Source: Gracilinema caldarium
Lineage (GTDB): Bacteria; Spirochaetota; Spirochaetia; Treponematales; Breznakiellaceae
Direction of reading: 5' to 3'
Length of the DNA: 64,000 nt
Assembly: GCF_029265695.1 (NCBI RefSeq)
Contig: NZ_JAJUHW010000003.1
Location: 62,001 to 126,000, forward strand
Below the pieces are notes generated by a model. The model was given only the letters and a program-made list of their open reading frames with translations, did no database searches and was not told the origin of the DNA. Shown here piece after piece: positions 3,985 through 17,910 of this stretch (its first letter is position 1; every line of letters starts with the position of its first letter). The position numbers and the translations under genes are program-made.

Positions 3985-5166
3985 TTACCGAACCACCAGA
4001 TTGGTTAAAAAGGGTATGGAAATGAAATTTCCGATTGCTCCGCCTAAGGATGAAAGGAAAAAGACTAAGAGTGCCCTGCTGACCCGGTTCCGGTATAGGC
4101 CCTTGAGGCTGGTGATATCCTCCGAAAGGTGTTCTATATCCTGAACTCGGGGACGGCGCAGGGTCGCTTCTACCACACCGGCAAAGAGGCCTACGCCAAT
4201 AAAGGGATTAATGGTTGCCACCGGGGCTCCCAAAAAGGCAGTCAACACCGAAAGGGGATGCCCCAGGGCAAGTATAGTTCCCAGTGCGGCGAGGGAGCCA
4301 TTCCAGAGCATCCATTGAATAAGCATGGAAAGGCTCACTGCCCCGCCGCTTTTAAAAAAGCCTGCGAGGATAAGCGCTACAATCAGGGCGGGGATGATCC
4401 AGGGGGCCAGCTTGCTGAACAGGGAGGACGGCGGGAGCTCTTCCAATTCAAGGGTATTAATAGATGCTGCGCCTTCGGAAAGTTTTTCCAGGTGGGTTTT
4501 CACCCCTCCCATATGTCCTGCGCCGATAACAGCCACGATGCGGCTGCCCCGACTCTCCCAGATTTTGGCAGCTAAATACTGGTCCCGTTCATCAATTAAA
4601 ACTCTTTTTATCTCAGGTAGATAGTTCGCGAGTTCTCCCATCATGCTGTCCAGTTCATTTTTGCTTTTAAGGGACTCAATCTGGTTTTCATCAATTTTTT
4701 CAGTGGTAAAGGCACTGGAAAGCAGGGTTGCCAAGAGTTTGTTTTTGCTCCAGAAACTGCAGCTTCCCCAGGCCCGTTTCAGGGTGAGCTGGACTTCACG
4801 GTCACAGAGACTATAGGGGATACCCAGTTCTGTAGCCTTGTCTATGGCTGCCCGCATCTCATCTCCCGGTTTAACCCCCAGGTTTTGTCCCATCCGGCGC
4901 TGAAAACCCGCCAAGACCAGGTTTGCCATGAGGAGAAACCCTTTTCCCTCCTTAAACACCTTAATTAAGTCGAGTTTTTCCCAGGAATCCTGCTCTTTCA
5001 TGGACGCCAGGCGCCCCGCATCGAGCTCCACGCAGACCATGTCGGGTTTTACTTCTTCTATTACCTTATTTACTTCGTCTATGCTGTCCCGGGACACATG
5101 GGCGGTGCCTACGAGGATTATTTCCCGGTCCTTAAGCGTAAGTTTTGTTTGTGTTTCTTCGTTCAT
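3985..5166 (-). CDS. TraB/PrgY family membrane protein
   Basis: The N-terminal 240 residues match the TraB/PrgY domain: GTAHVS (20-25), VELD (46-49), a central CDREVQLTLKRAW segment and GAGHMGG. The family is related to erythromycin-esterase/ChaN-type proteins with conserved GxxH and E residues proposed to be catalytic. From about residue 250 there are four to five membrane segments. PrgY inhibits a peptide pheromone in Enterococcus, but the role in spirochaetes is not established. GGAG sits 5 nt before the ATG, which overlaps the stop of the upstream DHH gene by 4 nt. Confidence 0.8.
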   Translation of the reverse strand: MNEETQTKLTLKDREIILVGTAHVSRDSIDEVNKVIEEVKPDMVCVELDAGRLASMKEQDSWEKLDLIKVFKEGKGFLLMANLVLAGFQRRMGQNLGVKPGDEMRAAIDKATELGIPYSLCDREVQLTLKRAWGSCSFWSKNKLLATLLSSAFTTEKIDENQIESLKSKNELDSMMGELANYLPEIKRVLIDERDQYLAAKIWESRGSRIVAVIGAGHMGGVKTHLEKLSEGAASINTLELEELPPSSLFSKLAPWIIPALIVALILAGFFKSGGAVSLSMLIQWMLWNGSLAALGTILALGHPLSVLTAFLGAPVATINPFIGVGLFAGVVEATLRRPRVQDIEHLSEDITSLKGLYRNRVSRALLVFFLSSLGGAIGNFISIPFLTNLVVR

Positions 5167-6164
5167 TGGTTCTCCTGGGCTGTCTCCACGGCCTTTACAA
5201 AGCGCCGGAATAGAGCCTGTTCATCAATATGTGCTGTGGGATGGATAATTCCACCCGCCATGTGGTCGTGTCCGCCCCCTTCACCGATACCTGCCAGCGC
5301 AAGCCTCACCACGGTTGCGGCGGAAATATCGGGTGTTCTGCTCCGGACCGACACATGATACCGGGGACCGCCGGCTTCGACAATGACCGAAACCTGAATT
5401 TCCCTGAGGCGCAGAAAAAAATCTGCGAGAATAGAAATGAGTTCCTGGGTGCAGTCGCTGGGAAGCATGGTAAAGAAAAGGTTCCCTTGGGTGTAAAAAT
5501 GCTGGGTGGCATAGCTGAATGCCCTGAGGTCTGCGATGGAGAGGGATGCTTTTACCACTTGGGTGCCGAACTGCCAGTCGGCCTGAAAAAAGAGCCGGTG
5601 GTGGGCATCGAGGTCTGCGGGACTGACCCGGCGGGATAAAAAATCCGTGTCTATTTGTATGCCCATGAGAAGGGCTGTCGCGGTTTGGCGGTCAGGAATC
5701 AGTTCCGCCTCCTGCCAGTAGTCGGCGATAATGCTGGAGCATGCGCCGTAGCTGGTACGGATGTCCACAAAAGGAAGCGGCAGTTCCCCAGGGTTAACAT
5801 GATGATCTATAACGGCTATCAGATTGGATGAAAGGGGATGGGCATTGGCGTTATTGGGACTGCCGTCCACTAATATACAGGGGGCCTCCGCACATTCGGG
5901 ATCGAGTTCCCCACTTATTTGTTCCAGCGGAATATTGAGATCCCGGATCATTGCATTGAGCGAATGGCTGCGGATTGGATAACGGTGGACCAGGCGGACC
6001 TTAAAGGAAAGCCGTTCAAGCAGCCGCCCTAAGCCGAATGCGGAGGCCACCGCATCGTGATCCGGAAAATCGTGGGTTTGCACCAGAATCAGGTTGTCAT
6101 TCCGCTTCATCCGAAGGGTGGCCAGAATGTAGTTGAATTGTTCAAAGGCGGAACTGCTGCCCAT
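5163..6164 (-). CDS. DHH/DHHA1 phosphoesterase, NrnA-like
   Basis: A 333-residue member of the DHH superfamily, whose NrnA-type members degrade nanoRNA oligonucleotides and hydrolyse pAp. It has the metal-binding motifs HDFPDHD (31-37), LVDGS near 99-102 and DHH (120-122), followed by a DHHA1 domain with GGGHDHMAGG (296-305). A c-di-AMP or pGpG phosphodiesterase of the same superfamily is possible, but no PAS or GGDEF domains are attached. No Shine-Dalgarno precedes the ATG; a TATACT box ends 6 nt before it, so the mRNA may be leaderless. Confidence 0.8.
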   Translation of the reverse strand: MGSSSAFEQFNYILATLRMKRNDNLILVQTHDFPDHDAVASAFGLGRLLERLSFKVRLVHRYPIRSHSLNAMIRDLNIPLEQISGELDPECAEAPCILVDGSPNNANAHPLSSNLIAVIDHHVNPGELPLPFVDIRTSYGACSSIIADYWQEAELIPDRQTATALLMGIQIDTDFLSRRVSPADLDAHHRLFFQADWQFGTQVVKASLSIADLRAFSYATQHFYTQGNLFFTMLPSDCTQELISILADFFLRLREIQVSVIVEAGGPRYHVSVRSRTPDISAATVVRLALAGIGEGGGHDHMAGGIIHPTAHIDEQALFRRFVKAVETAQENQ

Positions 6165-6200
6165 ATAATCAGTATAATCCTAGGAACTTACGCTTTGTAA
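6165..6200 (-). promoter_or_regulatory. Possible leaderless promoter for DHH phosphoesterase gene
   Basis: On the minus strand the -10-like TATACT (6171-6176) ends 6 nt before the ATG. The -35 region TTACAA (6195-6200, 18-bp spacer) is a poor match, so this is a weaker example of the leaderless arrangement. Confidence 0.3.
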
Positions 6201-7664
6201 GCCTCTGCCAATCACTTCCCATTCATTAAGCCGCCATTCGATCATATTTTTCCGGTTCATCTCCCGGACCATAATAAAATACTTATTGGCCAGGCTGGTA
6301 TTTCCTTTTAGATCATAGTATTGAGCCAGGTAATAGAGCATGCGAGCCTTTGTATCCAGCTTTTTTTCATTGCCAATTCGGTTTGCGATATCCGTATCCC
6401 CGGAAAAATCGAAAAACAGCCGCAGCATGTACCATTCCAAGGAATTAGGTGTTACTGTGGGGATTACTTTTTCCAGAAATCCCTTTACTTCCTGAGGTTT
6501 GCCGATTTTATACCAGGAAATACTCGCTAAAAGTGCGTAGCTGCTGTGGCTTGGTGACCGTTTATAGGCTTCGATAAAGGCGTCCCGAGCTTCGCGCCAC
6601 CGTTTATCCCTCATGTAGAGCATCCCGAGGGCTTCAAAGGCGAAATAATAGTCAGGGTTCAGTTCGGAAAGCCGTTTATAGTCCCGTTCTGCCCCTTTAT
6701 AATCTTCCAGTTCATCCCGGATGCCCGCGCTGTACACATAGGCAAGAAAATAGTCCTTATTAATGCTGATAGCCCGGTCATATTCGGCGAGGGCTTCTGT
6801 TTTTCTGCCTAAATCTAAAAGTACATTGCCCCGGTCCAGAGCAACCCAGTAATCGCCGGGGGCGAGCTCTTTTGCCAGATCCAGGTCTGTCAGGGCCTCC
6901 CGGAGAAAATTATTCTCCCGATACAGGCGGGCCCGTTCCTGCAGTGGCAGGGCCCATTTAGGGTTAAGTGCAATTGCCTTGTTAAAGGCCGCTTCGGCTG
7001 CCTTGGGGTTCCGGTTGTAGCGGTCTACCCTGCCTTGTCCAAGGAGGGCGTCGCTATTATCAGGATCTATAGAAAGGGCTTTTTTATAGTAGGCTTCGGC
7101 AAGTTTGTAAGTCTTAGCTTCTAAGGCTATATCTCCTAAATTTGTCAAAGCCTGGGTGTTTTGGGGGTTGATGGACACAATACGTTCTAACAGCTGTTTC
7201 TGTTCTTTTGTGTTGCCCCCTAAGCCCTCTACCTCTGCGAGGAGGAGCAGGGTTTCCTGATTGTCCGCGTCCTTCTGCAAAAGATTCTGTAGGGTTAAGC
7301 GGGCATCGGCAATATTACCCGATGTTGCAAGAATGCTCGCCTTTAAGCGCTGCATGGGAGCTGTGTCGGCTGTGTCCTTATCTAACTGGTCAAAAAGTTC
7401 CAGAGCTTTGGAGAATTTTCCCTGCTGCATGGCTTCAGTAACGGAAGCAAGCACCTTTGCAATTTGTTCTTCCTTTTTAAGCGGTTTCTCAGGAGGTGCT
7501 TTTTCCGGTATTGATGTAGCTTCTGTTGTTTTTCCTCGCAGATCGGATTCCTGAGGCGTCTTTTCCGGGAATCCCGCTGAACCAGGCTTACTGGTAACAC
7601 AAGATCCAAGCAGGAGGAGGGTAAGGGCCAGCCCAAACACCATTCTATATTGTAGTAATTGCAT
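6180..7664 (-). CDS. TPR-repeat lipoprotein
   Basis: A 494-residue lipoprotein (lipobox LLGSC, Cys22), followed by a Lys/Glu/Pro-rich spacer and about ten tetratricopeptide repeats, for example ALTNLGDIALEAKTYKLAEA and DALLGQGRVDRYNRNPKAAE. TPR arrays are protein-protein interaction scaffolds; envelope-anchored ones often support outer-membrane assembly or motility in spirochaetes, but no specific partner can be read here. The start at 7664 is chosen because AAGGA lies 5 nt upstream; two further in-frame ATGs (7679, 7715) lack a ribosome site and would bury the signal peptide. Confidence 0.8.
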   Translation of the reverse strand: MQLLQYRMVFGLALTLLLLGSCVTSKPGSAGFPEKTPQESDLRGKTTEATSIPEKAPPEKPLKKEEQIAKVLASVTEAMQQGKFSKALELFDQLDKDTADTAPMQRLKASILATSGNIADARLTLQNLLQKDADNQETLLLLAEVEGLGGNTKEQKQLLERIVSINPQNTQALTNLGDIALEAKTYKLAEAYYKKALSIDPDNSDALLGQGRVDRYNRNPKAAEAAFNKAIALNPKWALPLQERARLYRENNFLREALTDLDLAKELAPGDYWVALDRGNVLLDLGRKTEALAEYDRAISINKDYFLAYVYSAGIRDELEDYKGAERDYKRLSELNPDYYFAFEALGMLYMRDKRWREARDAFIEAYKRSPSHSSYALLASISWYKIGKPQEVKGFLEKVIPTVTPNSLEWYMLRLFFDFSGDTDIANRIGNEKKLDTKARMLYYLAQYYDLKGNTSLANKYFIMVREMNRKNMIEWRLNEWEVIGRGLQSVSS

Positions 7665-7759: not shown

Positions 7760-7796
7760 TTGAAATAAAGCTAGCTATTGAGGTATGCTGAGGATA
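7760..7796 (+). promoter_or_regulatory. Promoter, leaderless type, for 7797 gene
   Basis: TTGAAA (7760-7765), an 18-bp spacer and TATGCT (7784-7789) end 7 nt before the ATG at 7797. The same -10 hexamer and spacer length occur upstream of ptsI. Confidence 0.45.
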
Positions 7797-9608
7797 ATGA
7801 AAAGACATGTTGTATTGCGAACCATAGGTCTTATCGGCCTCTATGCAGCGGTATTTGTTGCTCTTGTTCTTATTCAATATGTGCGGAGAACCGCCTTTAC
7901 TCTGAACCTGGGCTCCTTGGTCATTTCTGGCAATTACCGGGATGCAGGGGCGATTAAAAAGCAGGCAAAAGAAGAGCCATACCTGACCGAAGGCCGGCTT
8001 TCGGTATTTTTTGGCGGTATGGAATTTAGGATGGCTGAGGAAGATGGTTTTTCTGTAACCAAAACCAATGGAACAAAACATCCCCTTTCTGGGCTTTCCT
8101 TTACCCTTTTGGATAACGCTGTACAAGTAGCCTTGTCAGATGGTAGTACTTTATTATTTAAGACCTTCTACGCTAATGGTGTAGAGACCCTAAGCATACA
8201 GGCCTCTTTGGAAGGGTCGTCACAGGATATCAGGCTTCCCTTCCGGCCCTTGAGATCCTCCCATGTTATGTCCGGTGAGCAGAATCGATATATGGTATCT
8301 GCGGGCGGCAAGAATTATCTGTTTACCGGGTCATCTGTGGATTATCAAAATAAATTGATTAGCCTTAAAAAGGGTATGTCCATGGCAGCCTATGGTATGA
8401 TGCCAGAAAAGAAGGGCTTTAATCCCAGCGACCTTGTTATCGCAAGCGCTCTGGATTCTCAGGCCTATACAGCAGCAATCAGCCGATGGCAGGCCCAAGC
8501 CTCCGCGACCTGGGAACGCAATATGGCTGGCAGCCCCGATGAAGATACCGTACTTGCCTATGTTTCTCAGGCTGCCAGAAAGGGGAGCTACCGGAGCGCA
8601 ACCGGTACAACTCCCGTGGTTTTCCTTGAGGGAAATCAGCGAACCTATCGATCTTCCGCATTCTTCGGCCGCCTGGATATTGCTCTGCGAGGCCTGGTTT
8701 CGGCAGACCGGGAATATCTGGGCCGGCTCTCTCGGATGATAAACGAAAAAAACCAGGATATTCTTGCTGAACCGGACCTGGTGCGAAACCTTTCCATCCG
8801 GGGATCCAAAGCCCTCGTGGATGATCTTATGAACATGGTAAAAACCATGGATCCAAGTACAATAAGTCCTGCTACTGCCCTGGGTGTTATAGAGAATTTT
8901 GTCAGCTGGAAAAAATACCGCGGATCAGATGAGAACCCCTTTGAACGGCTGAAAGAACAGGCCCTCTTTGTTCTTTCTGGCACCTTAAAGTCCAGTTCCG
9001 ACGGTCTTGTGCTTGCCTTCCCCGCAGCACAGGGTGATGTAGCGTATTCGATAAGACTAGGTAACGCGTTCGTGCTCTATGGCACCAGCGCAGGGCTTGC
9101 CGATTGGACAGCGCTTGGAAGGACCTTAATTCTTTCTGTATTAAGCCTTGCCGATTCAAGCGGCTCTGTGCCTGCTCTGGTGGATCTATCAAAAGATAGC
9201 AAGTCGTTTGTTGTTGCAGGGGAAACAAGAATTTCCGCATCTCGCATGTATTCCCAAATTACCGGGGACCTGTATTATCCGCGGATTGAACAAATTGCCG
9301 TTTCCGGTTACCCAGGCCTCTGGGCATGGACCGGAGCCGGAGCTCTTTCTGCCACCTTTGATGGATCGGTCCTTGATATTACAGTTCCCTTTTATGAAGG
9401 GGAAACCCATTACATGATGATAAAGGGGGTAAAACCCTTTAGAAAAATACAGCTCTATTCTATCGATTTCCGTACTGATCCCCGTTTTGAACGGTATGAT
9501 TCATCTGGTTGGGCCTATTCTGAGTCGGAACAAACCCTGCTCTTAAAAATGAAGCACCGCGCACAGGAAGAGCATATACGGATTTTCTATCAAACTGCGG
9601 AACAGTGA
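7797..9608 (+). CDS. Membrane-anchored protein of unknown function
   Basis: A 603-residue protein with one N-terminal hydrophobic segment (residues 5-25) that acts as a signal anchor, and a long extracytoplasmic part with many beta-like stretches and no family I recognise. It is rich in Ser, Leu and Ala and has no repeats. An in-frame ATG 12 nt upstream (7785) is rejected because it overlaps a -10 box. Its stop overlaps the start of the histidine phosphatase (TGATG), so they form a translationally coupled pair. Function unknown. Confidence 0.6.
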   Translation: MKRHVVLRTIGLIGLYAAVFVALVLIQYVRRTAFTLNLGSLVISGNYRDAGAIKKQAKEEPYLTEGRLSVFFGGMEFRMAEEDGFSVTKTNGTKHPLSGLSFTLLDNAVQVALSDGSTLLFKTFYANGVETLSIQASLEGSSQDIRLPFRPLRSSHVMSGEQNRYMVSAGGKNYLFTGSSVDYQNKLISLKKGMSMAAYGMMPEKKGFNPSDLVIASALDSQAYTAAISRWQAQASATWERNMAGSPDEDTVLAYVSQAARKGSYRSATGTTPVVFLEGNQRTYRSSAFFGRLDIALRGLVSADREYLGRLSRMINEKNQDILAEPDLVRNLSIRGSKALVDDLMNMVKTMDPSTISPATALGVIENFVSWKKYRGSDENPFERLKEQALFVLSGTLKSSSDGLVLAFPAAQGDVAYSIRLGNAFVLYGTSAGLADWTALGRTLILSVLSLADSSGSVPALVDLSKDSKSFVVAGETRISASRMYSQITGDLYYPRIEQIAVSGYPGLWAWTGAGALSATFDGSVLDITVPFYEGETHYMMIKGVKPFRKIQLYSIDFRTDPRFERYDSSGWAYSESEQTLLLKMKHRAQEEHIRIFYQTAEQ

Positions 9609-10312
9609 TGGAACTGAACATGGAAAAAGTTGATGGAGCCTTCTTTGCAGGCTGTAAACATCCGGTGGAATTTGTGTTTATCCGACATGGTGAGAGTGAA
9701 GGCAACGCAGTGGGAGTTTTTCAGGGACTTCTTGATTTTCCGCTCACCGACCGGGGCCGTGAACAAGCCCGGCTTCGGGGAAAGCAGCTAAAGGCTCTGC
9801 CCTGTTGCGTGCATCCCAATAAGGTCGGCGTTTTTTCTTCCCCCATGGGTCGGGCCCAGGAGACCGCCGCGCTTGTAGCGGAGGCCGCAGGTTTTGCCCC
9901 GCCGACGATTGTCCCATCCCTTACTGAACTTGATACCGGTGTCTGGACCGGTAAGGCCTGGGCGGATGTTCGCTCCGACGATAACGAACTGTGGCCCCAT
10001 TTCCGAGCTAAAAGCTGGGCAGCGATTCCCGAAGCTGAATCGGAAGGCGCCCTTTACCAAAGAGCCCTGGATGCGTGGAAATATCTAAGGGACCAATCGA
10101 TAGACCATAACTTGCAGACCGTTATTGCTGTAAGCCACGCTGGTTTCTTGCAATGGTTGTTTAGGGTAACCTTGGGCTGTACATCCTGGTTCCCCCTCAT
10201 TCCGGTGCATAACTGCGGAATGTTCCGTTTTAAGGTAGAACCAATCAAGGGTCATGCCGCCTATGTTGCCTGGGAAACTATCGACGAACCGTTGCCTTCG
10301 GCATCATTGTAA
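9608..10312 (+). CDS. Histidine phosphatase superfamily (phosphoglycerate mutase-like)
   Basis: The protein carries the branch-1 histidine phosphatase signature FIRHGESEGN (His27 as phospho-acceptor) near the N terminus, the SPMGRAQETA segment with the second Arg, and the downstream VSHAGFLQWL with the second catalytic His. At 234 residues it is phosphatase-sized; the substrate could be a phosphosugar, a nucleotide or a cobalamin intermediate, and true glycolytic mutase activity is not implied. ATG 9608 overlaps the previous gene's TGA; the slightly earlier GTG is less likely. Confidence 0.8.
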   Translation: MELNMEKVDGAFFAGCKHPVEFVFIRHGESEGNAVGVFQGLLDFPLTDRGREQARLRGKQLKALPCCVHPNKVGVFSSPMGRAQETAALVAEAAGFAPPTIVPSLTELDTGVWTGKAWADVRSDDNELWPHFRAKSWAAIPEAESEGALYQRALDAWKYLRDQSIDHNLQTVIAVSHAGFLQWLFRVTLGCTSWFPLIPVHNCGMFRFKVEPIKGHAAYVAWETIDEPLPSASL

Positions 10313-12706
10313 AGATTCTGGCCCCGCCCGCTCCATAAGCTCATCCCGTTCCTGTTCGCTGTCCGCAATAATGCTTGCCGCAAGGAAGCGGGCGACCACG
10401 GTTTCTGTCGTATAGACCCCCATGGGTACGGCCCCTTCTTTCCATAGCTCTTTCGATGTGCTGTACCCCGAAAAATCCACGAGTCCTTCCTGCTGGGAGG
10501 TACAGTAGAACCGGGCCTGTTTTTTCCGGCCCATTGCAAAGGCCCGCTTCAGCGAATAGGGACCCTCGCGGAAACCGGCGGTTCCTGTGTCGTAGAGTTC
10601 AAGAAAGAAATATCGAACCCCCTGGTCCATAAGGGCCGTCAGATAATCGGAGCGGAGCCCCGGGTAGATACGGAAAACACACATGGAATTGGCAGCCTCT
10701 TCTAAAAGCTGGGTCAGCACATATTGGTCCGCTTCCAGGGGCCCGGTAAGCAGGGAAGACCCGGCATGGATAGGTTTCTGCATGTTCCAGTTTCTAAATC
10801 CATCAGACCCGATTCGTTCAAATTTAAGGTTCAAGGGCGAAAGAATCCGCCCGCTATGCACCACATATACCCCGGTCTTTTCTTTTACCGCCACGTTGAT
10901 GGCCAATTCCATGGCTTTGGCAGCCTCGTCGGAGGTTCCCGGTGCGGTGGAGGATGCGGCAAGCACGATAGGGACCCCCGCATCGGCGAACAGCCAGTAA
11001 AGGAGGGGAGCTGTATAGGGCAGGGTGTCGGTACCATGGGTTACCACGATACCGTTGGCAGTACCAGAATTTATCCGTTCTGTAATGGTCGTAATCAGGG
11101 CTGCCCAGTCGGAGGGTATAATCTCTTCCGAGAGGATGCGCCCTACTTGGATAGATTCAAAGCGGATTTTCGATTCCAGGTGGTTCATGCGCTGGTGGAT
11201 CAGTTCCTTTAGTACCCGTTCATCGCCACTTTCTACCATGCCGTCTTCTGCTATGCGGCCCGAAATGGCTCCGCCCATAGAAAGAACATAGACTAAGGAA
11301 ACGGAAAGCTGCTCCCGTAAGATCTCCTTGACCATGTTCGGTTCCGCAAGCCCGCCGGTCTCCCGCATGATCCGGCCTGTCAGGAAACGAATAGGCCGTG
11401 CATCTCCTTCCCGAACCCGCTTAACTTCCAGCGGATTTTCTTCAATTACCCGGCGGACTATGTCGGAAATGACCTTTTCGTCGGTTAATTGTTCCCAGCC
11501 CTGTTCTTTTACAATGGTTTCCGGATCCTTATTTTCTTCCAGCACTGCGGTGATTGTCTGTTTTGCAATACCCGTATGGATGCGGCGGTCTGCAAGGAGT
11601 TTTATGATAGTAGCAAACCGTTCAGGTGTGAGCGGTGAGGTCTGGGGTGTTAATTGCAGCCGTTTAAATTCTTTAATGACATAGGATGAAAGCCATTGGG
11701 CAGTTTCCCGGGGACTGGCCCCATGGGCGATGGTCTGTTCAAAAAAATCGGCCCGGCTTTTTTCATCACATATAAACTCTGCCTGAGGAAGGGTAAGTCC
11801 ATATTGGGCCATAACACGGTTGCGGCGCGGTTCAGGCAATTCAACCGTAAAGGATTCCAGGGCTTCAAGAATATCCGGACCCGGTATAAAGGGTTGTGTC
11901 TTAGGAAGCAGCTCGAATTTGGGCTGGTTCTCGAGTTTACGTTTCTGGAAGGATTCGGTGTTGTTTTTAGTTTCATTCCATATTCGGCTTTCAGGAAGCA
12001 CGGTTCCGCCGTGTTCCAGTATTTCTTCCTGCCGATTAAGTTCAACGTTAATCGCTTTTCTGACAAAGTTAAATGAATTAAGATTTCGCAGTTTTACAAA
12101 ACCCTCAGGCTCTTCCGGATAGGGGGCAAGGGCGACATGGGCATTACAGCGGATAACACTTTCTACGGGTACCCCAGGGATGACCTCCAGGTACTGAATA
12201 CGGCGGCGTAAATCAGACAGGAAGACCTCCGCTTCTTCTCCAATCTCAAAGTCCGCCTCGGTGCGGATTCTGAGGCTGGGCATTCCGGCGGTAGAATAGT
12301 CCATCCGTGTTTCCTTTCCTGAATGGGTAAGCCGACCAGCATCTTCTTCGATCCTGAGTTCCGCGATGCGGATGTGTTTTTTTCTTCTATGAAAGACGAT
12401 ATCCATAAAGCCGTCGGTGCCGAGTTTTAGGGATAGACGGGAAAGGGCATATTCGGGGGGTAGATCCGGGGTGCTCAGGTTCTTTTCATAGACTGGTTTT
12501 TTTACCAATACGCAGTTCAAGGCCTTTGCGATCGTATAGGCCTTACGGGCTGCTATCTGGTTTAATTGGGGCGGAACGGTGCCTTCACCCCGGCATACTG
12601 GGCAAGAAGCAAGCATGCCGTTTTCCATATATGTGCAGTCGCAAAAGGTTTTTACCCCCGTTAAAAGGAGTATGCGTACTTCCAGCGAAATATAGGATTT
12701 TAACAT
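10304..12706 (-). CDS. GatB-like / asparaginase-like fusion (GatE-GatD-like), degenerate active sites
   Basis: Residues 1-460 follow the B subunit of tRNA-dependent amidotransferases: ISLEV start, four Cys in C-x-C...C-x2-C (22, 24, 35, 38) as in the GatB zinc site, EEDAGRLTH (120-128), KLRNLNSFNFV, and a full YqeY-like tail ending FLTGRIMRETGGLAEPNMV. Directly after it, residues 470-800 follow the asparaginase fold (MGGAISG, THGTDT at 556-561, a C-terminal domain), as in archaeal GatD. Archaea encode GatD and GatE separately; here they would be joined in E-then-D order. Expected catalytic residues differ: GatB His in EVH is Arg11, the Glu in PLIEI is Arg146, the asparaginase GGT Thr is Ala480 and the catalytic Lys is Val578. 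The start at 12706 has AGGCGG 7 nt upstream. Activity is doubtful; a regulatory or new ligase-like role is possible. Confidence 0.75.
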   Translation of the reverse strand: MLKSYISLEVRILLLTGVKTFCDCTYMENGMLASCPVCRGEGTVPPQLNQIAARKAYTIAKALNCVLVKKPVYEKNLSTPDLPPEYALSRLSLKLGTDGFMDIVFHRRKKHIRIAELRIEEDAGRLTHSGKETRMDYSTAGMPSLRIRTEADFEIGEEAEVFLSDLRRRIQYLEVIPGVPVESVIRCNAHVALAPYPEEPEGFVKLRNLNSFNFVRKAINVELNRQEEILEHGGTVLPESRIWNETKNNTESFQKRKLENQPKFELLPKTQPFIPGPDILEALESFTVELPEPRRNRVMAQYGLTLPQAEFICDEKSRADFFEQTIAHGASPRETAQWLSSYVIKEFKRLQLTPQTSPLTPERFATIIKLLADRRIHTGIAKQTITAVLEENKDPETIVKEQGWEQLTDEKVISDIVRRVIEENPLEVKRVREGDARPIRFLTGRIMRETGGLAEPNMVKEILREQLSVSLVYVLSMGGAISGRIAEDGMVESGDERVLKELIHQRMNHLESKIRFESIQVGRILSEEIIPSDWAALITTITERINSGTANGIVVTHGTDTLPYTAPLLYWLFADAGVPIVLAASSTAPGTSDEAAKAMELAINVAVKEKTGVYVVHSGRILSPLNLKFERIGSDGFRNWNMQKPIHAGSSLLTGPLEADQYVLTQLLEEAANSMCVFRIYPGLRSDYLTALMDQGVRYFFLELYDTGTAGFREGPYSLKRAFAMGRKKQARFYCTSQQEGLVDFSGYSTSKELWKEGAVPMGVYTTETVVARFLAASIIADSEQERDELMERAGPESLQ

Positions 12707-12728: not shown

Positions 12729-12757
12729 ACTATGCTGGGCATAGCCCTGCCTGTCAA
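12729..12757 (-). promoter_or_regulatory. Promoter for the GatB-like fusion gene
   Basis: On the minus strand a consensus TTGACA (12752-12757), 17-bp spacer and CATAGT (12729-12734) lie 22 nt upstream of the ATG at 12706. Confidence 0.5.
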
Positions 12758-12832: not shown

Positions 12833-14257
12833 GTGATCAAGCGTGACTTTCCAAAAATCCACTTCTATGACCAGGATTTTGTAGACATATACGACAGAAC
12901 GTGGGCTTGGATACAGGACAGCTGGCTTTCTGGACCGGAGAAAAGCGCCGTTAAGGGCAAGTTTTTTGGCTATCCCGGTTGTACCAAAGTAACCCAGCTG
13001 GAAGCTATTTTATCATCCTTTTTTCTCGTTTACTCAAATAGAATTTACCAGGCCCATCCTACTTTGGATATATTTTACGAACGGCAGGAAGCCAATGGGG
13101 CAATCCGCTGGGCCTACGAAATAGAGTCCGGTAATCCGGTTGTGAGCCCAGAAAATCCTGAAGGGTTAGGCCTTCCGCTCTTTGCCTGGGCCGAGTTTAA
13201 TCTTTACCATAAATCTGCCAATAAAAAGCGTGTTAAAGAGGTAGTCCCCGTCTTACATCGGTATATGGCCTGGATCGATTCCCTGTATAAGCGTCCGAAC
13301 GGGCTCTATGCGGTACCTCTGGCTGCAACGGGTATGGACAATGCTCCCCGGGAAGATGCGGTGTACCTTATAGATTTTAACACCGTCATGGCAATCAACG
13401 CCCTGTATATGTCAGCCCTTGCAGATATCCTTAATGACAAGGAAGCCAGCTTTCAGTACAAACGGCAATATTTCTCGCTTAAAACAAGGATCAATTCGCT
13501 CATGTGGGACCCTGATTCGGGATTCTATTATGATCTTGATGAAAATGAACGCAGGCTTTCGGTTAAGACTATTGCGGGTTACTGGCCTCTTTTAGCTGAG
13601 CTGCCAAACGACGATAAGGCGGAACGGATTATCGAAAAACTCACCGATCCGGAATATTTTGGTACCCCCCATCCCTATCCAACGGTGGCACGAAACGAGC
13701 CCAGTTTCAGCGAAAACGGTGACGGCTATCGGGGTTCGGTGTTTCCTCATTTGACATTTATGGTAATTAAGGGCTTGGAAAAATACCAACGCTGGGATCT
13801 GGCTCGGGAATGCGCTATCCGGCACCTCTATTTTGTGCTCGATTCTATGCATCCGGAGGGAAATCACCATAAGGGAAACCTCTGGGAAGCCTATTTGCCC
13901 CTAAAAGAAGGTCCTGCCCAATGGCCGGGCCGCGAAGGATTTCCCCGACCTAATTATCTCAGTTATATCGCCCTGTCTACTATTTGCCTTACAATAGAAA
14001 ATATCATTGGTCTTTCCATCTCGCTGCCGCGGAAGACCGTAGACTGGATAATTCCCAACCTGGAGATTATGGGTATAGAAAACCTTTCCCTTAAGCGGAA
14101 CATGATTACGATTCTGTCGAATAAAAGCGGCCGCGGCTGGGAAATACACATGGAAAGCGAAAAACTTTATTATTTTACCATCAATATCCTGGGCAAGAAA
14201 AAGAAGACCCTTCCGATCCCATCTGGAAAATGCTCTATGCTCATAGACAAGCTGTAA
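12833..14257 (+). CDS. Glycoside hydrolase, GH37/GH63-like (alpha/alpha)6 barrel
   Basis: A 474-residue cytoplasmic enzyme with the layout of trehalase and GH63 alpha-glucosidases: GMDNAPRED (a match to the G-x-D-N-S-P-R catalytic segment, with the acid Asp), then YLIDFN, a Glu- and Trp-rich middle and LWEAYLPLKEG near the end. The last 80 residues form a small beta domain. Family members cleave trehalose, mannosylglycerate or glucosyl-oligosaccharides; the exact substrate is not readable. The GTG start has AAAGGAGA upstream and a good promoter. It is followed after 10 bp by the ppx gene. Confidence 0.7.
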   Translation: MIKRDFPKIHFYDQDFVDIYDRTWAWIQDSWLSGPEKSAVKGKFFGYPGCTKVTQLEAILSSFFLVYSNRIYQAHPTLDIFYERQEANGAIRWAYEIESGNPVVSPENPEGLGLPLFAWAEFNLYHKSANKKRVKEVVPVLHRYMAWIDSLYKRPNGLYAVPLAATGMDNAPREDAVYLIDFNTVMAINALYMSALADILNDKEASFQYKRQYFSLKTRINSLMWDPDSGFYYDLDENERRLSVKTIAGYWPLLAELPNDDKAERIIEKLTDPEYFGTPHPYPTVARNEPSFSENGDGYRGSVFPHLTFMVIKGLEKYQRWDLARECAIRHLYFVLDSMHPEGNHHKGNLWEAYLPLKEGPAQWPGREGFPRPNYLSYIALSTICLTIENIIGLSISLPRKTVDWIIPNLEIMGIENLSLKRNMITILSNKSGRGWEIHMESEKLYYFTINILGKKKKTLPIPSGKCSMLIDKL

Positions 14258-14267
14258 GTGGGCACCT

Positions 14268-15809
14268 ATGGCCAACGGGGACTTTCGACTTGTAGCGGTG
14301 ATTGAAATTGGCTCCACAGGAATTCGTCTGGTCGTTGCAGAGATTAATTCCTCCGGAGCCTGGCATGTGGTGGACCGGGCAGGAAAACCCGTCGCTCTCG
14401 GCCGTGATGTCTTTACCCGGGGTGTTATTTCCCGGGAGTCCATGCTTGCAAGCATGGTGGTCCTGCAAAACTACCGGGAACTTTTGAATGGCTGGGGTAT
14501 TGATGACCGGGATATCCATGTTATAGCTACCAGCGCCCTCCGGGAAGCCCGAAACCGGGATATGTTTATTGACCGGGTCTACCTAGTGACCGGTTTTAAA
14601 ATCGTTGTAGTCGAGGGTATCGAAGAAAACCGCCTCATGTATCTTGCGGTTCGTTTTGCCTTAAAGGATGACCGCCCCCAGTTCAGCCGTTCAAACTCGG
14701 TCATAATAGAAGTGGGCGGCGGTTCTACGGAACTCATGCTTCTTCGGCGGGGAAAAATGGTAGCTGCCCACAGCCTCAGGCTGGGGACCATACTGGTGGA
14801 CCAGCAGGTCAGACAAACCATGGGATCAAATCTCTATTTACAGCGCTTCCTGACCGAAAGCGTTAATAATACCTGCGAATCTCTTAACGTAGAGCTTGAT
14901 TTAAGCCATGTCAAAATATTTATTGTAGCCGGTTCAGATGCACGTCTTGTGGCAAGCCGTTTTGGAGTAGAAATAAATAAAAACTGCTGGGTGGTGGATA
15001 GGGAAGTCTTTTGTGAATTTGTGGATCGTATAAAGGGCTACAGCATAGAAGAGTGTGTACAGAAACTGAGAATTCCCTTTGCAGAAGCAGAAGGTATAAT
15101 TCCGGGGCTGCTTACTTATAAATTGTTCCTTGAAAAGACCTCGGCCACAGAATTAATCGTTCCTAATGCGTCCATACGGGAAGGAATGCTTATCAATCTG
15201 TCTCAGGGTATTGATCCGGGGTTGCAAGAAGAGTTCTACTCTCAGATTATTGCATCGGCGGTCAATTTAGGAAGAAAATATCGGTTCGATGAAAACCATA
15301 GCCGCCATGTCACCACGTTAGCGCTCCAGCTTTTTGATGCACTGATAAAAATACATGGTATGGATCGGCGGGCCCGCCTCTTACTGGAAGTTTCCGGTGT
15401 GTTGCATGATGTGGGCATGTTTATCCGCAGTTCCGGGCATCACAAGCACAGCCAATATATAGTAGCTAATTCTGAAATATTTGGTCTCCATCAGGAAGAT
15501 TTGGATATTATTTCCAATGTGGTACGCTACCATCGCAAAAGCCCTCCAAATTCAACCCATATTTCTTTTATTGCCCTCCAGCGGGAGGACCGAATATTGG
15601 TATTAAAACTTGCAGCCCTGCTTCGGGTGGCCGATGCACTCGACCGTGGTCATGCGCAACGAATACAGGATATACGGGTTGAACAAAGGGATGACTCTAT
15701 TGTGATTCTGGTCCCGGGAAATCATGATTTGACCCTGGAACGGTATGGTTTGGAAGAAAAAGCTGATATGTTCCAGGAAGTCTTTGGTTACAAGGTCGTT
15801 TTATTGTAG
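14268..15809 (+). CDS. ppx: Exopolyphosphatase / GppA-type phosphatase with HD domain
   Basis: Ppx/GppA enzymes remove terminal phosphate from polyphosphate or convert pppGpp to ppGpp. The N-terminal half has the ASKHA-fold motifs: AVIEIGSTGIRL, ATSALREARN, and IEVGGGSTEL, the phosphate-binding loop. The C-terminal half is an HD domain (LHDVGMFI, then HHKHSQY). The length of 513 is typical. It is directly followed by ppk (7 bp gap), supporting a polyphosphate role over guanosine pentaphosphate hydrolysis. Upstream is the glycoside hydrolase. Confidence 0.88.
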   Translation: MANGDFRLVAVIEIGSTGIRLVVAEINSSGAWHVVDRAGKPVALGRDVFTRGVISRESMLASMVVLQNYRELLNGWGIDDRDIHVIATSALREARNRDMFIDRVYLVTGFKIVVVEGIEENRLMYLAVRFALKDDRPQFSRSNSVIIEVGGGSTELMLLRRGKMVAAHSLRLGTILVDQQVRQTMGSNLYLQRFLTESVNNTCESLNVELDLSHVKIFIVAGSDARLVASRFGVEINKNCWVVDREVFCEFVDRIKGYSIEECVQKLRIPFAEAEGIIPGLLTYKLFLEKTSATELIVPNASIREGMLINLSQGIDPGLQEEFYSQIIASAVNLGRKYRFDENHSRHVTTLALQLFDALIKIHGMDRRARLLLEVSGVLHDVGMFIRSSGHHKHSQYIVANSEIFGLHQEDLDIISNVVRYHRKSPPNSTHISFIALQREDRILVLKLAALLRVADALDRGHAQRIQDIRVEQRDDSIVILVPGNHDLTLERYGLEEKADMFQEVFGYKVVLL

Positions 15810-15816
15810 GTGGTTT

Positions 15817-17910
15817 ATGCTTACTGTTCCTTTTCGTTATTTTAACCGTGATCTATCTTGGGTTGATTTTAACGCCCGTGTCCTTGGAGAAGCCCTTCGT
15901 CAGGATTTGCCGGTCCTTGATCGGCTCAAATTCCTTACCATAGTGGCATCCAATTTTGATGAGTTTTTTATGGTCCGGGTGGCGGCAATAAAGCGAGCCC
16001 AGCGGATGAACCTTGGCCGGGATCCCTCCGGTCTTCTTCCGGAAGAACAATTGCAGCTTATTTCGGAAAAGGTAAAGGAAATAACCCGTAAAACCTACGA
16101 ATGCCTCACAGCAGAAGTGCTTCCCGATCTTGCACGGGCAGGCCTAGAACTTATTCGTCCTGGTTCCTACAGCGAAGCCCAATATGAATATTTGGAAAAC
16201 CTGTTCCAAAAAGAAGTGTATCCGATTTTAACGCCCCTTAAACTCGAAGAAGGTAAGGAGCCCCCAACCATGGGGAACCTGAAACTGCATGGGGCTTTCC
16301 TTCTTGAAAGCGGTCAGGTTGCCATTGTACAGGTCCCCACCGCTTTGGATCGAATAATTTGGCTGCCTCCGGAACCAGGTCAAAAAAAGCCCTGGGCCTT
16401 GCTGGATGATGTGGTAATGCTCTGGGCCCATCGGCTTTTTAACGGGTATACCATCAAAGAGGCCATGCTTTTTAAGGTTACCCGGGACGCAGATTTTTCG
16501 GTAGACGAAGAACGGGACGAAGATTTTGTAGAAGCTATGGCAGAGGTGCTTCAGAACCGGGAACATTCCTGGCCAGTAAGGTTATCTTATTCGGGTAATA
16601 GCCCTGTCCTTAAGGAACGGCTTGCCAAGCTCCTGGAATTGGAAGAGATGGATCTCTATGAAATGCCTGGACCTATCGATCTGCGGTCCCTTTCTGAATT
16701 AGCCTTTATAAAAGGCTTTGATCAGTTCCGGGAGCCCCTCTGGCCTGCTCTCTGGCCGGCAGAATTGCCGGAAGATGAACCGATGTGGGAGTACTTGCAC
16801 CAATCTGATCTATTGCTGCAGCTTCCCTATCATTCTTTTGATCCGGTTGTTCGTTTTATTCAGGATGCTGCCATAGACCCCCAAGTTTTGGCTATTAAAA
16901 TTACCCTGTACCGCACAAGCGGCGATTCCCCCATTGTCAAAGCCCTTGAACAGGCCGCCCGGAACGGCAAGCAGGTAACGGTACTGGTAGAATTAAAGGC
17001 CCGATTTGATGAGGAACGTAACATTACCTGGGCAAGCAGGCTCGAACGGGCTGGGGTCATTGTGGTTTATGGAATCGCCCAGTTAAAAGTACATGCAAAA
17101 ATCTGCCTTGTGGTACGGAAAGAAGAAAACGGGATTTGCCGCTACGTTCATATATCTACGGGAAACTACAATGATAAGACTGCCCGACTGTATAGCGATC
17201 TGAGCCTGTTTACCACAAACCAGCAAATTGCTCAGGATGCAACCCTATTCTTTAATATGATTACCGGTTATTCAGTCATCCAGAGTACCCAGCAGCTTTT
17301 AATCGCACCGGTTAATCTTAAGCGCCGTCTGATTGAACTGATAGATCGGGAAGCAAAGCGGTCAAGTCAAGATTATCCGGGGAGAATTGTGGCAAAATTC
17401 AATTCCCTCGCAGATGTGGATATCATCAATGCCCTGTACCGGGCTAGCCAGGCAGGGGTTTCTATTGAGCTCAACGTACGGGGCATTTGTATGCTCGTGC
17501 CAGGTGTTCCGGGGTTATCAGAGCATATCCGGGTGGTAAGTATCGTAGACCGTTACTTAGAGCATTCCCGTATCCTCTATTTTGCAAACGGAGGGGCTGA
17601 GGAACTCTATATTTCCAGCGCCGATTGGATGAGCCGGAATCTGGATCGGAGAATTGAGCTCATGGTTCCCATACTGGATGCTTCCATTGCTGAAACTGTT
17701 AAAAAGCTGCTTTTTAGCTATTTTAATGACAATACCCACAGCCATATTTTAGGTTCTGATGGCAGTTGGGTTCGGCGGGAGCCAGGATCGGAGGAAAGTG
17801 CTTTCCGGGTTCAAGAAGCGCTCTATACGTCGATTAAAGAGACTAATGAAATATCCCGCTCGGCTCCCCGGCAGGAATTTGTAGTCCGCCGCCGCCCTCC
17901 ATCTGAATAA
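15817..17910 (+). CDS. ppk: Polyphosphate kinase 1
   Basis: PPK1 polymerises the gamma-phosphate of ATP into polyphosphate, and runs the reverse reaction. The 697-residue protein starts RYFNRDLSWVDFNARVL, the family's N-terminal signature, and includes the HD-like region with KVHAKICLV (the phospho-accepting His) and a second conserved His in YLEHSRILYF. The final segment LYISSADWMSRNLDRRIEL is typical. The ATG at 15817 with AGGTGG upstream is chosen; an in-frame ATG at 15745 lies inside ppx. It forms an operon with ppx and the rRNA methyltransferase gene downstream (26 bp gap). Confidence 0.93.
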   Translation: MLTVPFRYFNRDLSWVDFNARVLGEALRQDLPVLDRLKFLTIVASNFDEFFMVRVAAIKRAQRMNLGRDPSGLLPEEQLQLISEKVKEITRKTYECLTAEVLPDLARAGLELIRPGSYSEAQYEYLENLFQKEVYPILTPLKLEEGKEPPTMGNLKLHGAFLLESGQVAIVQVPTALDRIIWLPPEPGQKKPWALLDDVVMLWAHRLFNGYTIKEAMLFKVTRDADFSVDEERDEDFVEAMAEVLQNREHSWPVRLSYSGNSPVLKERLAKLLELEEMDLYEMPGPIDLRSLSELAFIKGFDQFREPLWPALWPAELPEDEPMWEYLHQSDLLLQLPYHSFDPVVRFIQDAAIDPQVLAIKITLYRTSGDSPIVKALEQAARNGKQVTVLVELKARFDEERNITWASRLERAGVIVVYGIAQLKVHAKICLVVRKEENGICRYVHISTGNYNDKTARLYSDLSLFTTNQQIAQDATLFFNMITGYSVIQSTQQLLIAPVNLKRRLIELIDREAKRSSQDYPGRIVAKFNSLADVDIINALYRASQAGVSIELNVRGICMLVPGVPGLSEHIRVVSIVDRYLEHSRILYFANGGAEELYISSADWMSRNLDRRIELMVPILDASIAETVKKLLFSYFNDNTHSHILGSDGSWVRREPGSEESAFRVQEALYTSIKETNEISRSAPRQEFVVRRRPPSE

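Follow-up and report, generated by a model that had tools for sequence, protein, structure and literature searches.

A GatB-asparaginase fusion in Treponematales: an orphaned gatB and a probable double pseudoenzyme

The gene on the minus strand at positions 10304 to 12706 of the window (the whole 64,000-nucleotide stretch of DNA analysed here) encodes a true fusion, in which a GatB body (residues 1-467) runs into an asparaginase fold (residues 470-800). Comparison with its relatives supports well both the loss of catalysis at the two active sites and the view that the gene is an ancestral Spirochaetia gatB, orphaned at the ancestral gatCAB position. Reading the evidence as a whole, we put the probability at about 0.6 that the product is a double pseudoenzyme with a regulatory role, which would bind asparagine or glutamine without hydrolysing it and would also bind tRNA; the ligand, the tRNA binding and the partner are presumed. 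A pseudoenzyme-type fusion under selection had been proposed in the initial annotation, in agreement with the family-wide replacement of Mg2+ ligands and nucleophile and the low dN described below.

The reading frame, correctly given in the initial annotation as intact, comprises 800 codons and a stop (start codon at 12706, stop codon at 10306-10304). The search with domain profiles that was proposed there returned three Pfam matches above their cut-offs and thereby bore out the claim of GatB-like and asparaginase-like halves in one chain: GatB_N at residues 6-259 (E = 8e-40), GatB_Yqey at residues 320-467 (E = 8e-37), and Asparaginase at residues 472-627 (E = 3e-23). The GatB catalytic (cradle) domain (11930-12691, minus strand) scores 137 bits, against 371 bits for the GatB that the genome encodes elsewhere, whereas the helical/YqeY tail (11306-11749, minus strand) outscores the tail of that GatB (127 vs 82.5 bits). 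The asparaginase-fold domain, delimited by Pfam and structure superposition, covers residues 472-792 (10331-11293, minus strand). The fusion falls short of both NCBIfam equivalog cut-offs for GatB (314 bits vs 338; 270 vs 315), and its scores are far lower for GatE (64 and 40 bits vs cut-offs of 456 and 320); for GatD it reaches 89 bits (cut-off 324), no improvement on the 88 bits for asnASE_I.

The resemblance to archaeal GatDE (1zq1, 2d6f) consists of a GatB/E-type kinase combined with an asparaginase-type domain, together with the S-E substrate-pocket pair of GatD. The fusion differs in being a single chain, in being GatB-type by profile score and in missing the nucleophile, and on these comparisons the likeness is superficial. 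The E-then-D order and the link to GatDE that had been suggested therefore fail, the first half being GatB-type (314 bits) rather than GatE-type (64 bits), and an archaeal GatDE origin is rejected on the same scores.

An AlphaFold model computed from 39 aligned sequences has a mean pLDDT of 84.7, with a pTM of 0.58 that leaves the placement of the two halves relative to each other uncertain. Residues 1-406 of the model superpose on the GatB chain 2g5i_B, solved with ADP-AlF4 (Z = 36.5), and residues 470-800 on L-asparaginases (Z about 28), including two nucleophile-to-Ala mutants with bound Asn (7c8x, 5dnc). With the GatB of GatCAB (S. aureus 3ip4/2g5i, A. aeolicus 3h0l) the fusion thus shares the cradle and helical/YqeY fold (Z 36), about 30% identity and the ATP contacts, and it differs in having an extra asparaginase domain and no adjoining gatC or gatA. 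With type I L-asparaginases (P. horikoshii 1wls, P. furiosus 4q0m) it shares the fold and the HGTD and catalytic-Lys positions, but the nucleophile Thr has become Ala and the domain is appended C-terminally to GatB. Upstream of the gene lies a candidate sigma-70 promoter, TTGACA-17-CATAGT (12729-12757, minus strand). The match described earlier as a consensus promoter is indeed there, at 10 of 12 positions; with three such sites in the scan against 0.8 expected, it is suggestive only. An Rfam scan of the 64-kb window gave zero matches.

For the GatB half, the ligands of yeast GatFAB served as the reference, namely H36, E156 and E186 for Mg2+ and E34, T189, N230 and S232 for ATP (PMC4027206). 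They were transferred to the window protein by motif matching (EVH = E9/R11; EED = E120/E121; LIEIVT = R146/T149; NLNS = N208-S211), and 34 Treponematales orthologues were compared with 29 canonical spirochaetal GatBs. The His/Glu/Glu triad for Mg2+ is broken in the fusion, only one Glu being retained. Arg11 (12674-12676, this and the following codons on the minus strand) stands for the His in 34/34 orthologues, a position that is His in 29/29 class-level fusions and 29/29 canonical GatBs, and Arg146 (12269-12271) stands for a Glu in 33/34. Four further replacements occur in all 34 orthologues: Arg118 (12353-12355) for the invariant His of HLEED, Asn188 (12143-12145) for an invariant Asp, Lys205 (12092-12094) for an invariant Glu, and R207 for a residue invariant in the 29 canonical GatBs. 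The ATP contacts E9 (Asp in 4), T149, N208, N210 and S211 are retained in nearly all orthologues. On this alignment, the replaced residues are themselves invariant and cannot be put down to drift.

Contrary to what had been supposed, the N-terminal GatB half is not complete, since the signature stretch RKxYFYPDxPKxYQIxQ, invariant in the 29 spirochaetal GatBs, is destroyed and variable in the Treponematales fusions. The four-Cys pattern that had been pointed out is present in the window protein but missing from about one third of its relatives. The EED and HGTD motifs are both retained in the window protein, as noted before.

Ala480 (GGA; 11267-11269, minus strand) takes the place of the asparaginase nucleophile in 30/30 class-level fusions and in 29 of the 34 Treponematales orthologues, the others having Thr (3), Ser (1) or Val (1). 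The Arg11, Arg146 and Ala480 replacements are therefore as first reported. The catalytic Lys had been equated with Val578 through an alignment slip; alignment to solved asparaginases and GatD places it at Lys628 (10823-10825, minus strand), kept in 34/34. The alignments accordingly leave the Thr and His positions replaced and the Lys intact, so that the protein is less degenerate than was claimed, while the patterned and invariant GatB replacements go beyond that claim. The Thr-Asp-Lys triad is otherwise well preserved, with Thr559-Asp560 of HGTD (11027-11032, minus strand) found by family alignment in 31/34 and 34/34 orthologues, respectively, and S526/E527 kept in 34/34. The engineered mutants 7c8x and 5dnc show the same Thr-to-Ala change and were solved with bound Asn; the Ala of the fusion is natural and conserved. 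The three Thr480 carriers (L098, L102 and L106) belong to one subclade of family f2. Because Ala is found in all class-level fusions and in families f48 and f1, this Thr is best read as a reversion from Ala, and on their sequences the asparaginase halves of the Thr480 and Ser480 orthologues could be active or reverted.

The relatives of the gene were sought with the asparaginase half in 248 genomes of the class. Strong matches (E below 1e-25) were obtained in 39 of them, 34 lying outside Treponematales. From the 32 class-level loci fetched, many of them in draft genomes, 30 full-length or near-full-length proteins of about 12 families were recovered; all 30 have the canonical GatB residue at each catalytic position checked, and all have GGA. 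These class-level fusions belong to gatC-gatA-gatB operons that lie in divergent orientation to a glycoside hydrolase gene. The gatA gene lies directly upstream of the fusion in 31/32 loci (the remaining locus begins at a contig end), and gatA followed by the divergent hydrolase gene is found in 26/26 loci with a long enough contig. In Treponematales the fusion directly adjoins the same hydrolase gene (MGH1/trehalase-like; 12833-14257, plus strand, in the window), with no gatC or gatA between. The fusion thus stands alone where the class loci have gatCAB, which is why we take the window gene to be an orphaned gatB. In trees of either half the Treponematales fusions form a single clade, and by this distribution the fusion family is ancient in Spirochaetia. 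No GatB-asparaginase fusion in Treponema turned up in a literature search, and a plasmid search gave, among the matches listed, ordinary GatB-type partial matches only.

One genome of family f1, G214 (Treponema UBA12037), encodes two fusions, the orphan (L005) and the GatB of a second gatCAB operon (L022, 8001-10448), which has a GGS asparaginase tail and a long branch. The idea that this tail was copied from the orphan was dropped, as it groups with the class-level operon fusions; the fork (92/96) is not starred and, given the long branch, the exact place of L022 is unsure.

In most bacteria, Gln-tRNA and Asn-tRNA are supplied by GatCAB (PMC8406222). The initial annotation had raised the question of a further gatCAB in the genome, and a separate gatC-gatA-gatB operon was indeed found elsewhere, its GatC being divergent; GlnRS, AsnRS and AsnA are encoded as well. 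Family f2 has a different, divergent GatB type, and no GlnRS match was found in it. In G063 and G169, the two f3 genomes of the phylum sample, no GatB was detected and AsnRS and GlnRS are present, which suggests that some Treponematales have lost tRNA-dependent amidation. The original enzyme was presumably made redundant by direct synthetases or by a second GatCAB. Co-occurrence of the fusion with GlnRS, AsnRS or AsnA gave no clear link and indicated no partner gene. In one f48 locus (L136, G344:C43), the catalytic domain of a canonical GatB is split over two reading frames in the assembly.

Selection was assessed between the window genome and G194 from dN, because dS is near saturation and dN/dS correspondingly rough. 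The asparaginase part of the fusion has a dN of 0.032, the cradle 0.081 and the helical/YqeY tail 0.098, compared with 0.068 for the cradle and 0.213 for the tail of the genome's ordinary GatB. By this measure, selection on the fusion is strong, and strongest on its asparaginase tail.

Such constraint would also be expected of a neofunctionalised enzyme, whose basic cradle pocket and altered asparaginase site would carry out a novel reaction, for instance on a phosphorylated or non-tRNA substrate. The GatB replacements, which are invariant across three families and hence not random, the conservation of T559, D560, K628, S526 and E527, and the Thr480 of some f2 members all fit this proposal. 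We nevertheless consider it unlikely, for most members lack the nucleophile as well as two Mg2+ ligands, 30/30 class-level fusions were already without the nucleophile, and the GatB signature loop varies freely. Somewhat less probable again is a structural partner or decoy that still associates with GatA/GatC or tRNA and modulates GatCAB competitively, the asparaginase domain serving as scaffold only: the well-kept GatB fold and YqeY tail and the full gatCAB of the window genome agree with it, but the supposed scaffold, pocket residues included, is the most constrained part of the protein.

The fusion is, on comparative grounds, useful and not essential, because it has been lost cleanly several times, with the flanking genes directly adjacent in L152, L158, L159, L162, L164 and L165, and because it is a pseudogene with split frames and internal stops in G070, of the f2 genus g7 (L109, G070:C21:38000-51000, 5121-7449). 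These losses and the pseudogene are what a decaying relic without function would leave, a reading that is very improbable and largely refuted by the dN between the window genome and G194, which at 0.064 is about half the value for the ordinary GatB (0.122), and by the intact frame in 33/34 sampled Treponematales that carry the fusion.

The double pseudoenzyme probably arose as follows. The starting point would be an ancestral Spirochaetia gatB whose C-terminal asparaginase-fold domain was by then without its nucleophile. In the ancestor of Treponematales, gatC and gatA would have been deleted from the operon beside the hydrolase gene, and a different gatCAB would have taken over transamidation. 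The orphan would then have lost its kinase and transamidase chemistry, the Mg2+ His and Glu becoming Arg, Asp188 becoming Asn, Glu205 becoming Lys and the signature loop disappearing, and would have been retained for its non-catalytic part. By analogy with the 7c8x and 5dnc mutants, the asparaginase domain may bind Asn or Gln without hydrolysis. The GatB body, with its ATP contacts kept and its Mg2+ site now basic, may bind a nucleotide or other anion without Mg2+ or catalysis, and the intact helical/YqeY tail probably binds tRNA. The output would be ligand-responsive regulation, with GatCAB or tRNA-Asn/Gln charging as a possible target.

A bolder version, which we put forward tentatively and think doubtful, though a little likelier than a new enzymatic activity, is that GatB with a nucleophile-less Asn/Gln-sensing domain controls tRNA-dependent amidation throughout the class, and that the Treponematales orphan is a free-standing sensor of amide amino acids and tRNA with Mg2+-free nucleotide binding through its Arg-substituted kinase site. 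We found no description of a built-in amino-acid-sensing domain on GatB in the searchable literature. If the tail is a sensor, free Asn and Gln would feed back directly on indirect tRNA aminoacylation, and the Treponematales copies would be a natural experiment in which an enzyme subunit was stripped of its partners and its chemistry and retained for its regulatory domain.

A functional link between the fusion and the neighbouring hydrolase was considered and rejected. The hydrolase gene is present in 183/197 genomes of the order, with or without the fusion, and the adjacency is therefore an inherited position. On the other side of the fusion lies a gene for a 607-aa protein (7785-9608, plus strand), which has no Pfam or NCBIfam match. 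In families f1 and f2 this gene is conserved next to either the fusion or the hydrolase gene, and it adjoins the hydrolase gene where the fusion has been lost. In most Treponematales loci the hydrolase gene is followed by a conserved polyphosphate pair, the Ppx/GppA and polyphosphate kinase genes (14268-17910 in the window). At one locus (G243:C240:1-4200), the orphan fusion directly adjoins glnS, the gene for GlnRS, in convergent orientation.
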